Shown: positions 11,776-15,522 of the stretch, in pieces
How positions within the stretch are numbered: position 1 is the stretch's first letter
How the letters are laid out: every line of letters starts with the position of its first letter
NCBI GenBank assembly: GCA_016191815.1
Contig: JACPVI010000016.1
Location: 1 to 64,000 of the forward strand
DNA from: Myxococcales bacterium
GTDB taxonomy: Bacteria > Myxococcota > Myxococcia > Myxococcales > Myxococcaceae
DNA length: 64,000 nucleotides
Reading direction: 5' to 3'
The notes under the pieces: generated by a model
Seen by the model: only the letters and a program-made list of their open reading frames with translations
Database searches by the model: none
What the model was told of the DNA's origin: nothing
Program-made: the position numbers and the translations under genes

Positions 11776-12717
11776 ATGCCTGGCGCTCCACAGACCGACA
11801 ACGACGTCGAACGAGCCGTCGAGGCGCGGTACTCCGGGGCCGCTCGAATCCCCGAGGAGGGTCTGTGCTGCCCGACGTCCTACGACCCCGCCCTGCTGGC
11901 GGCCATCCCCCCGGAGGTCCTCGAGCGTGACTACGGATGCGGAAACCCGGCCAGGTATCTACGGAAGGGCGAGACGGTCCTCGACCTCGGCTCAGGGGCG
12001 GGCAAGGCGTGCTTTCTGGCGTCCCAGGCCGTCGGCCCGTCAGGGCGAGTCATCGGCGTCGACTTCAACGATGAAATGTTGGCCTTGGCGCGCCGACACG
12101 CCCCTGAATTCGCCCGGCGAGTCGGCTACGCCAACGTCGAGTTCCGCAAGGGGCGGATCCAGGACCTCGCCCTCGACTTGGAGCAGCTCGAGCGCTACCT
12201 CCAGGAGCACCCGGTCCGCTCGGTCGATGAGCTTGCGGCGTTCGAGGCGCACATCGCCCGCACGAGGGCTGCCGAGGCGCTGATCGCCAGCGAATCAGTC
12301 GACGCCGTCGTCTCGAATTGCGTGCTGAACTTGGTCAGGCCCTCCCACAAGCGGCGGCTGTTCACCGAGCTTTTCCGGGTGCTCCGACAGGGCGGTCGGG
12401 CAATTGTCTCGGACATCGTCAGTGACCGGGATGTCCCCAAGCCCCTGCAGCGCGACCCGGCGCTGTGGAGCGGATGCGTCTGGGGAGCGTTCCGCGAGGA
12501 TCTTCTGCTTCGCGCCTTCGAGGGAACAGGGTTCGAGGCAGTCGGCCTGCTGGAGCGACAGCAAACCCCCTGGAAGGTGGTGGAAGGAATCGAGTTTCGC
12601 AGCGTGACACTGGTGGCGCACAAGCCGGCCGGCCGAGCGCGCGCCCAGGCCGGCGGCGGTGGGGTCGCGCCGGTAAGCTGCACGAGCGCCACTGCCGGCG
12701 GAGGGCGCTGCTGCTGA
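11776..12717 (+). CDS. arsM: Arsenite S-adenosylmethionine methyltransferase
   Basis: A 313-residue class I methyltransferase that transfers methyl groups from AdoMet to trivalent arsenic. The AdoMet-binding motif is VLDLGSGAGK with the acidic follow-up GVDFNDEM. Arsenic-binding cysteines occur in GLCCP near residue 33 and in ERDYGCGNP; another lies in SNCVLNL, and the Gly-rich C-terminal tail ends in RCC. This layout matches the ArsM version that accompanies ArsS. ATG 11776 follows GGGAGG, and the TGA stop overlaps the ATG of arsS (TGATG), so the two are translationally coupled. The pathway would convert methylated arsenic to arsenosugars. Confidence 0.88.
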   Translation: MPGAPQTDNDVERAVEARYSGAARIPEEGLCCPTSYDPALLAAIPPEVLERDYGCGNPARYLRKGETVLDLGSGAGKACFLASQAVGPSGRVIGVDFNDEMLALARRHAPEFARRVGYANVEFRKGRIQDLALDLEQLERYLQEHPVRSVDELAAFEAHIARTRAAEALIASESVDAVVSNCVLNLVRPSHKRRLFTELFRVLRQGGRAIVSDIVSDRDVPKPLQRDPALWSGCVWGAFREDLLLRAFEGTGFEAVGLLERQQTPWKVVEGIEFRSVTLVAHKPAGRARAQAGGGGVAPVSCTSATAGGGRCC

Positions 12718-13718
12718 TGAAGACTTCCGCCGCCCGGCCCATGCCGCTGGCCGGCGAAGGCTGGTCCTTCGATGAGGCCCTGCGCGACCACGGAACTGCC
12801 CGGCTGGTCCGGCGCAAGGTCACCACCCTCCAAGTAAACCTGGGCAAGGTGTGCAACATGGCGTGCCGGCACTGCCACGTGGAGGCCGGTCCGAACCGAA
12901 AGGAGGTAATGCCGAGGGCGGTTGCCGAGAGGATAGTGGAGCTTCTCGCGCGCGACCCAAGGCCCGGAGCGGTGGACCTCACGGGAGGGGCGCCCGAGCT
13001 GAACCCGAGCTTCCTCTGGCTGGTCCGGGAGGCCCGCCGGCTCGGGCTCGGCGTCATCGACCGCTGCAACCTCACCATCCTTTTCGAGCAGGGAATGGAG
13101 GACCTGCCGGAGTTTCTGGCGTCGCACCGCGTGCACATCATCGCCAGCCTGCCGTGCTACGAGGCCGAGAACGTCGAGAAGCAGCGCGGCCGCGGGGTCT
13201 TCGCGATGAGCCTCGAAGCGCTGAGGCGGCTCAATGGGCTCGGGTATGGCCGCTCGGGGTCGTCCCTCGAGCTGGATCTGGTCTACAACCCGATCGGCGC
13301 GACGCTGCCGCCTCCGCAGTCGAGACTCGAGGCCAAGTACAAGGATGAGCTGCGGCGCAGGCACGGCATTGAGTTCCACCGGCTGTTCGCCACTACGAAC
13401 ATGCCCATCCAGCGGTTCGCGCAGTTTCTGGAGCGGACCGGCCAGCACGCGGCCTACATGTGCCTGCTGGCGAGTCAATTCAACCAAGACACCGTTCCCG
13501 AGCTGATGTGTCGCTCCCTGGTGAGCGTCGGCTGGGACGGCAAGCTGTACGACTGCGACTTCAACCAGATGCTGGAGTTGCCGGCGGGCGCGAGTACCCG
13601 CACGGTTTGGGACATCGACTCGTTCGGCGCGCTCGATGGCTGTCGGATCGCGACCGGCCGGCACTGCTTCGGCTGTACCGCGGGGGCGGGCTCGAGCTGC
13701 ACGGGGACCCTTCGATGA
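12717..13718 (+). CDS. arsS: Arsenosugar biosynthesis radical SAM protein
   Basis: A 333-residue radical SAM enzyme. The [4Fe-4S] site is C-x3-C-x2-C in VCNMACRHCHVEAGP (about residues 45-53), followed by the GGAPE motif that contacts AdoMet. The C-terminal DUF3641 region carries further cysteines (MCLLASQFN..., LYDCDFNQM, HCFGCTAGAGSSC). ArsS joins a 5'-deoxyadenosyl group to dimethylarsenite. Some relatives have selenocysteine near the C-terminal SSC; here it is Cys, followed by TGTLR. It is coupled on both sides: its start overlaps the arsM stop and its TGA overlaps the ATG of the PiT gene (ATGA). Confidence 0.9.
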   Translation: MKTSAARPMPLAGEGWSFDEALRDHGTARLVRRKVTTLQVNLGKVCNMACRHCHVEAGPNRKEVMPRAVAERIVELLARDPRPGAVDLTGGAPELNPSFLWLVREARRLGLGVIDRCNLTILFEQGMEDLPEFLASHRVHIIASLPCYEAENVEKQRGRGVFAMSLEALRRLNGLGYGRSGSSLELDLVYNPIGATLPPPQSRLEAKYKDELRRRHGIEFHRLFATTNMPIQRFAQFLERTGQHAAYMCLLASQFNQDTVPELMCRSLVSVGWDGKLYDCDFNQMLELPAGASTRTVWDIDSFGALDGCRIATGRHCFGCTAGAGSSCTGTLR

Positions 13719-14652
13719 TGCCTCTCGTTCTCGGCTTCGCGCTGGCCTACGCCAACGGGGCCAACGGCGTCTCGAAGGGAGTCGCTACGCTTGCCGGCGC
13801 CGGAGTGGCGAGCTACCGCCAGGGGCCATTCTTTGGGGCGCCCTCTGGACCGGAGCGGGAGGGCTGATGGCGGCTCTGCTCGCCCGGGCGATGGTGGTCA
13901 CCTTCGGCAACGGCCTGCTTGCCTCCAGTGCGGCTCCTTCGGCTGCCGGCGCTGCCGCAGTGCTCTTCGGTGCGTTGGCCTGGGTGCTGCTGGCAACCCG
14001 ACGCGGTCTCCCCGTGTCGACGACGCACGCAATCGTCGGCTCCCTTGTTGGTGTCGCGGTGGTTTCCTTGGGCGTGGACGGCGTCCGCTGGGGAGCACTT
14101 GGTGGCAAGGTCCTTCTCCCGCTTCTTCTCAGTCCGGCCGCTGCGCTGGTGCTGGTGTTTTTCCTGTTGCGTCTTGCTCTGCGGCGGCCGCCGGCCGGGA
14201 GCCAGTCCCGGGACTGCCTTTGCGCCGAGGTCACCCCGAGCGCCTCGCTCGAGGTTTCCACGGGAACCGCGGCCTTCGCGGCGCGGCCCGCCCAGCTCGG
14301 CGCGACGGGAGGCGTCAGCGAGGTGTGCGCCATAGAGCACCCTCGGTCGCTGCGACTGTCGCTGGAGCACCTTCATTGGCTCGGCAGCGGAGCAACCAGC
14401 CTTGCCCGCGGAGTGAACGACGCCCCGAAGATTGTGGCGCTCGTTCTTGGCGGAGCCGTGCTGAGTGGGCAGGAGGGCACGCCGGCATCCGGGTTGTTCC
14501 TGTTCGTCGCCCTCGGCATGGTGACCGGGAGCGTCACCGGTCTCGGAGGGCGGCGCCATTGGCTGACCCCCCCGGGGTGCTTGCCACCCTCTACGGGAAT
14601 CCTCGCTGAGGCGGGCACCCCGCCCAGACAGGAATCCGCCACTCGCGTGTAA
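13715..14652 (+). pseudogene. PiT-family inorganic phosphate transporter, frameshifted and C-terminally truncated
   Basis: The start MPLVLGFALAYANGANGVSKG is a classic PiT N-terminus. After ASYR the frame is broken near 13820-13826: one base is missing in a G-run, and the family sequence AILWGALWTGAGG continues in another frame. Downstream the second conserved PiT signature (GVNDAPKI, here after SLARG) is present. After VTGSVTGLGGRR, near 14555, the family sequence stops again and the remaining C-terminal helices are missing. PiT transporters import phosphate and, by analogy, arsenate; in arsS operons they probably move pathway substrates. As written the gene cannot give a full transporter. 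Confidence 0.8.
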
Positions 14653-14729: not shown

Positions 14730-15086
14730 GTGGTCAAGGTTGCGATCGTCGTATTGGCGGACACGGAGTCTCACGGCGACCTGGGACGGGTGGCCAACGC
14801 CCTGGAGTTGGCCAAGGAGCTGAAACAGGCGGGAGACTCCGTCGAGTTGATCTTCGATGGAGCTGGAACCAAGTGGGTGCCCGGCCTGGCCGACCCGTCC
14901 CACAAGGCGCATCCGCTTTTCAAGGAAGTGCGGGAGAAAGTTCGTGGAGCTTGCGCCTTCTGCGCGGGAGCATTCGGCGCGACAGCGGGAGTGAAGGCCG
15001 CCGATACAAAGCTGCTCGGAGAATTCGAAGGCCATCCGAGCCTGCGGCGCCTGCTGGTCGACGGTTACCAGATTGTCACTTTCTGA
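14730..15086 (+). CDS. DsrE-family protein
   Basis: A 118-residue protein of the DsrE/DsrF-like sulfur-relay fold: an N-terminal strand (VKVAIVVLADTESHGDLGRVANAL), a middle EVREKVRGACAFCAGAFGA with two cysteines, and a closing LLVDGYQIVTF typical of the family. DsrE-like proteins carry persulfides or bind small ligands on a conserved Cys, here within CAFCAGAF. GTG 14730 follows GGAGGG at the right distance. It lies between the damaged PiT gene and nrtS, on the same strand, in the arsenosugar cluster. A sulfur or selenium carrier role there is inference. Confidence 0.82.
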   Translation: MVKVAIVVLADTESHGDLGRVANALELAKELKQAGDSVELIFDGAGTKWVPGLADPSHKAHPLFKEVREKVRGACAFCAGAFGATAGVKAADTKLLGEFEGHPSLRRLLVDGYQIVTF

Positions 15087-15522
15087 CCGGGGAGCGGCGG
15101 GGTTGCCCGGTATCGAGCCCCCGAAGCCAGGCCACCGGTTGGGACCCGCCGCTGCGGAGGCGGAGTTGCGGGGCGCCGGAGCAGCCCAGCGGGCTGAGCA
15201 CGTGCGCCGCGCGGCGACGGTGGCGCTCGTGGTGGGCACGTGCCTGACCGCCATCAACCACGCCGAAGTGGCACTGGGCGCCCCGCTGACCTCGGTGCTG
15301 ATGGCGAAGATCGGATTCACGTACCTCGTGCCGTTTCTCGTCGGGTGCAGATCGGCCCAGTACACCCCCCCTCTGGAGGGATGCCCGTTGGGCGTCGCGC
15401 TCCCAGAGGGAGCAGATCTGGCTCCGGCTGCACCCTTTCTCGTCTCGCTCTACTCCGCCATTGCCACCGAGAGAGGCTCGAGGAAGGGTCTGCCGGCAGC
15501 GCGTGAAGGCTCCAAGCAGTGA
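15073..15522 (+). CDS. nrtS: NrtS-type small membrane protein carrying an in-frame insertion
   Basis: The core EHVRRAATVALVVGTCLTAINH...KIGFTYLVPFLV is that of the NrtS family, two-helix proteins annotated as nitrate/nitrite transporters. The family ending (YLVPF-V-S-Y-A) is split here. After VPFLV come 34 foreign residues, then FLVSLYSAIATERG, which is the expected ending. The foreign part is a 93-bp palindromic element plus a 9-bp duplication and keeps the frame open. Whether the enlarged second helix still works is doubtful. The start is uncertain: TTG 15073 overlaps the dsrE gene, and TTG 15103 is the other option. Confidence 0.7.
   Translation: MSLSDRGAAGLPGIEPPKPGHRLGPAAAEAELRGAGAAQRAEHVRRAATVALVVGTCLTAINHAEVALGAPLTSVLMAKIGFTYLVPFLVGCRSAQYTPPLEGCPLGVALPEGADLAPAAPFLVSLYSAIATERGSRKGLPAAREGSKQ
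15334..15342. repeat. 9-bp direct repeat (target duplication), left copy
   Basis: TTTCTCGTC, repeated exactly at 15436-15444 on the other side of the inserted element. Confidence 0.8.
15343..15435. mobile_element. Miniature palindromic element (MITE-like), 93 bp
   Basis: It starts GGGTGCAG and ends CTGCACCC, an 8-bp terminal inverted repeat. The interior is an imperfect palindrome (CCCTCTGG facing CCCAGAGGG), so the whole unit can fold into one hairpin. It is flanked by the 9-bp direct repeat TTTCTCGTC. Taking out the element and one repeat restores the NrtS consensus exactly. Its length, divisible by three, adds 31 codons without a stop, plus three from the duplication. It encodes nothing and presumably moved by a transposase elsewhere. 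Confidence 0.78.
15436..15444. repeat. 9-bp direct repeat (target duplication), right copy
   Basis: TTTCTCGTC, identical to 15334-15342. Confidence 0.8.

Follow-up and report, generated by a model that had tools for sequence, protein, structure and literature searches.

The question raised by this locus is whether the 34 residues that interrupt an nrtS-like gene in the window (the whole 64,000-nucleotide stretch of DNA analysed here) belong to the encoded membrane protein or were carried in by a mobile element, and, if so, what moved it. A preliminary description of the sequence had recognised a palindromic 93-bp element with inverted ends GGGTGCAG and CTGCACCC, folding as one hairpin and flanked by 9-bp direct repeats, and the coordinates (Table 1) and folding calculations bear this out, the repeat being TTTCTCGTC on both sides. 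The outer 8 bp of the unit form perfect inverted ends and the rest pairs imperfectly; a single long hairpin is predicted for both DNA (-25.2 kcal/mol, z -2.7) and RNA (-54.8, z -3.9), outdoing nearly all shuffled sequences.

Table 1. Features of the interrupted gene, the 93-bp element and its candidate partner (window positions unless a contig or locus is named)
Feature	Position	Strand	Remarks
nrtS-like gene, interrupted in frame	15073..15522	+	longest ORF, from TTG 15073; NF038050 profile match
Target-site duplication, left copy	15334..15342	+	TTTCTCGTC; nrtS codons F-L-V
93-bp MITE	15343..15435	+	non-autonomous, no transposase gene; hairpin; three copies in genome, 93/93 identical
MITE left end	15343..15373	+	84% over 31 bp to left end of C31 IS; outer 19 bp 18/19
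MITE right end	15415..15435	+	21/21 to right end of C31 IS
Target-site duplication, right copy	15436..15444	+	TTTCTCGTC
Second MITE copy	C53:156186-156278
Third MITE copy	C47:8448-8540
Partner IS, 1832 bp	C31:13587-15418	transposase on minus	paired GGGTGCAG-type ends; duplication GGCTGAATA
85-bp MITE-sized unit inside partner IS	L033:2088-2172 (G000:C31:13587-13671)		left end plus internal CTGCACCC
Radical SAM ORF	12465-13718		DUF3641 C-terminal domain
PHO4 phosphate-transporter ORF	13636-14652		profile positions 24-262 of 350

The host gene, a small one of the nitrate-transporter type, is recognised by the NCBIfam NrtS model (NF038050, cut-off 25) with 29.8 bits as it stands and slightly better once the empty site is rejoined (33.5 bits); a Pfam search gave no match for the ORF. 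Its conserved domain starts near 15211, the match in the genome extending from 15211 to 15345. Two NrtS homologues, one on a Vibrio plasmid (WP_152470956) and one in a genome of the same phylum, span the insertion point without an insert, reading TYCVPFCVS and TYSVPFIVS (in common, TYxVPFxVS) where the host gene reads TYLVPFLV-insert-FLVSLYS, so that excision restores the family consensus, as had been proposed. Homologues containing the same 34 residues, named beforehand as the sign of native sequence, were looked for, and both of those found lack them. A search of 135 relatives gave the nrtS match alone, and one of 195 genomes of the phylum gave it and a single other, a sparse distribution that suggests horizontal acquisition.

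The preliminary description had also proposed a search of the genome with the 93-bp unit, both for further copies and for an autonomous element with the same ends and 9-bp duplications. Applied to the source genome, 6.77 Mb in 89 contigs, this search returned three copies, one in the window (contig C6) and two more on contigs C53 and C47, all identical over 93 of 93 positions, the two extra copies far exceeding chance expectation. Each is flanked by its own perfect 9-bp duplication, and the three duplications (TTTCTCGTC, AAATGAGCT and CCTTGAATT) all differ; the unit is thus mobile. That the 34 residues are native to NrtS and the repeats a coincidence has, in our judgement, virtually no chance of being right: the open frame and a gene score above the NrtS cut-off would suit such a reading, whereas the identical copies at two unrelated sites already refute it, and the perfect duplications and the homologues without the insert likewise count against it.

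The settings of the other two copies are of some interest in themselves. On C47, the copy has an rve-type transposase on one side and an IS1595-type zinc-ribbon gene fragment on the other. The copy on C53 (L002:1438-1620) adjoins an apparent 3' tRNA fragment, which drew no ARAGORN call, upstream of a tyrosine-integrase-like gene, a setting that looks like the attachment site of an integrated element.

A candidate autonomous element was found in the same genome by a permissive search with the unit, which gave two weak matches in the same order and orientation on contig C31, unit positions 1-31 matching from 13587 and positions 73-93 up to 15418. These bound an insertion sequence (IS) whose ends are imperfect inverted repeats, identical at 15 of 20 positions, and which is flanked by a 9-bp duplication, GGCTGAATA. 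It carries one uninterrupted 531-residue transposase frame; the genome has no other gene of this kind, and no further full copy of the IS was found there. With an element of this kind and three identical copies bearing three different duplications in hand, the claim of a MITE making 9-bp target duplications holds. The 93-bp unit in nrtS is a genuine MITE: it is short and without a transposase gene, has terminal inverted repeats, carries a perfect 9-bp duplication at each of its three copies, occurs in identical form at unrelated sites and shares its ends with an autonomous-looking element. Prokaryotic MITEs in general (PMC10969869) are likewise short, palindromic and multi-copy, with the inverted ends and target duplications of an IS; the present case differs in comprising only three copies in one genome.

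The transposase of the C31 IS matches the ISKra4 model NF033572 best of all families (E 9e-52, residues 91-493), with a score of 176.6 bits that falls below the equivalog cut-off of 205, and its distant second-best models are ISLre2 and ISH6. These two are other prokaryotic Mutator-like families. A Pfam search gave no match for the transposase. In an alignment of six transposases, D220, D335 and E455 are invariant, and would represent the expected DDE triad, consistent with a functional site. Prokaryotic Mutator-like elements have inverted repeats of 18-39 bp, a conserved terminal base and duplications of 8-9 bp (Guerillot et al. 2014, PMC3942029), and the C31 IS shows the combination of 8-9-bp duplication and inverted repeats used to define p-MULT (PMC3942029). 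With the ISKra4 group, or p-MULT 4 (Guerillot et al. 2014, PMC3942029), it has in common similarity in the catalytic region, inverted ends with a terminal G/C and 9-bp duplications; in contrast to that group, its transposase scores as an outlying relative and the 93-bp unit has no transposase at all.

How the MITE relates to this IS can be judged from the ends (Table 1), the right end matching throughout and the left end less completely; the left end fits the IS of another locus, L039, better (17/17). Between the ends, the 41-bp interior of the MITE (positions 32-72) shows no detectable similarity to the C31 IS, and the MITE is thus not a simple internal deletion of that copy. Judged from these alignments, it probably stems from a related IS variant, and not from the C31 copy by a single deletion, or else its core has been replaced; its true parent may be an IS variant other than the C31 copy. 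Within the C31 IS itself, an internal CTGCACCC makes up, together with the left end, a MITE-sized unit of 85 bp, and such an internal end is a possible route to short IS derivatives. Derivation of the MITE from this sub-unit is not claimed, the core of the MITE being unlike the IS.

The unrelated core also lends itself to another reading, in which a different transposase family moved the MITE and the resemblance to GGGTGCAG is coincidental. We consider this improbable, since the two ends correspond to those of the IS in order and orientation and the duplications are of equal length, and since the places in the genome that pair such ends are the three MITEs, the C31 IS and a few matches at chance level. 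An ISKra4-like, that is, prokaryotic Mutator-like, transposase is most likely the mover on the sequence comparisons made here.

Related transposases were found in 17 instances in other bacteria, with up to 65% identity. Among the elements with both ends and a duplication readable, to which the comparison applied, those at L041, L044, L046 and L048 carry GGGTGCA at their ends and are flanked by exact duplications of 9 bp. The eight duplications of the group, a small sample, yield an AATTCA-like consensus of 7.56 bits, compared with a null mean of 4.68 with orientation optimised in data and null alike, and none of 300 random sets reached that value; these alignments point to a weak target preference.

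Outside this genome, no copy of the MITE was found in genome_contigs and viral_contigs (by pattern scan), in plasmids and phages (by blastn) or in 195 genomes of the phylum, the collection scans demanding exact ends and the collections possibly omitting records of the source genome or of near ones. A pattern scan of 13 genomes with related transposases gave about control rates and no clear MITE, the matches in G201 looking like a low-complexity repeat. A partial match in G080 (77% over 57 bp), without a second end, was taken as chance, as were weak matches in other genomes of the phylum, which lie mostly within the unit and lack paired ends. The MITE is provisionally regarded as confined to one genome. 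The suggestion of a new MITE family stands in so far as the sequence was not found elsewhere, and is tempered by the fact that an IS belonging to a known group has the same ends. A literature search on MITEs linked to ISKra4 found no paper in the library searched.

What the insertion does to the reading frame follows from its length and composition. The gain is 93 + 9 = 102 bp, exactly the 34 stop-free codons originally described, and any insertion of this unit keeps frame, as its 93 bp and the 9-bp duplication are both divisible by three. The unit is GC-rich as well as palindromic and is open in all six frames (frame 0 reads GCRSAQYTPPLEGCPLGVALPEGADLAPAAP), so the nrtS frame survives. All six frames are open in 2% of shuffled units and in about 10% of 93-bp stretches of the window, estimates to be read in the knowledge that palindromy makes the frames of opposite strands interdependent; combined with a one-third chance for the length, they put the outcome at roughly one to a few per cent, which is unusual, not strong. 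The in-frame outcome is too common to point to selection, and a single family, with just one of its three copies in a gene, is insufficient to demonstrate it.

In-frame fusions of MITEs with genes are in any case documented, most strikingly in Rickettsia (PMC10969869), and to call the insertion rare, as had been done, was an overstatement: Rickettsia palindromic elements (RPEs) and other intragenic MITEs do likewise (PMC10969869), and of the three copies here only the one in nrtS is within a recognisable, intact coding gene. The likeness to RPEs invites the view that this ISKra4-linked MITE has kept its length and its open frames as harmless or useful to proteins, and that NrtS works with its new 34-residue segment. 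The six open frames, the 102-bp gain and the otherwise intact nrtS frame would agree with this. RPEs, which have in common with the unit a short palindrome in frame within a gene (PMC10969869), are about 150 bp long, recur in coding genes and encode a conserved peptide, whereas the recurrence is lacking here; against the view, too, stand the frequency of six open frames by chance, too high to weigh strongly for a single family, and the position of the insert, which splits the second membrane segment (TM2) and lowers hydropathy past the junction. We give this view only a slim chance, if a slightly better one than movement by another transposase family.

The reading that we hold with high confidence is that the MITE keeps the ends of an ISKra4-like IS, that the transposase of the C31 IS or of a lost close relative mobilised it and that this placed 34 residues in NrtS. 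We infer mobilisation in trans, in which the 531-residue DDE transposase would bind the GGGTGCAG ends and excise or copy the MITE, which would enter a weakly preferred AATTCA-like 9-bp target through cuts staggered by 9 bp, the filling of the gaps then producing the duplication. At nrtS, the insertion would have fallen on the F-L-V codons within the second membrane segment, keeping the frame and lengthening the protein, with transport probably lost or reduced. Hydropathy over 19 residues is about 1.4-1.6 on the empty site and drops to some 0.4-0.8 past the junction, and because the insert divides this hydrophobic segment, impaired transport appears a likelier effect than new function.

Upstream of nrtS, a PHO4 phosphate-transporter ORF ends in unrelated-looking residues after the matched part of its profile and may be truncated or frameshifted; it is overlapped by an ORF for a radical SAM protein. 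A small promoter scan around nrtS found no promoter. Insertion upstream of sigma-A promoters is a trait of several ISKra4 family members only.

Knowledge of MITEs in general is left unchanged by this finding, which provides a clean case of a known type of mobile DNA. It does bring together, for the ISKra4 group, an apparently recent MITE, its candidate autonomous IS and a weak target preference, and it offers a natural test of how a membrane protein some 75-80 residues long bears a 34-residue insertion.
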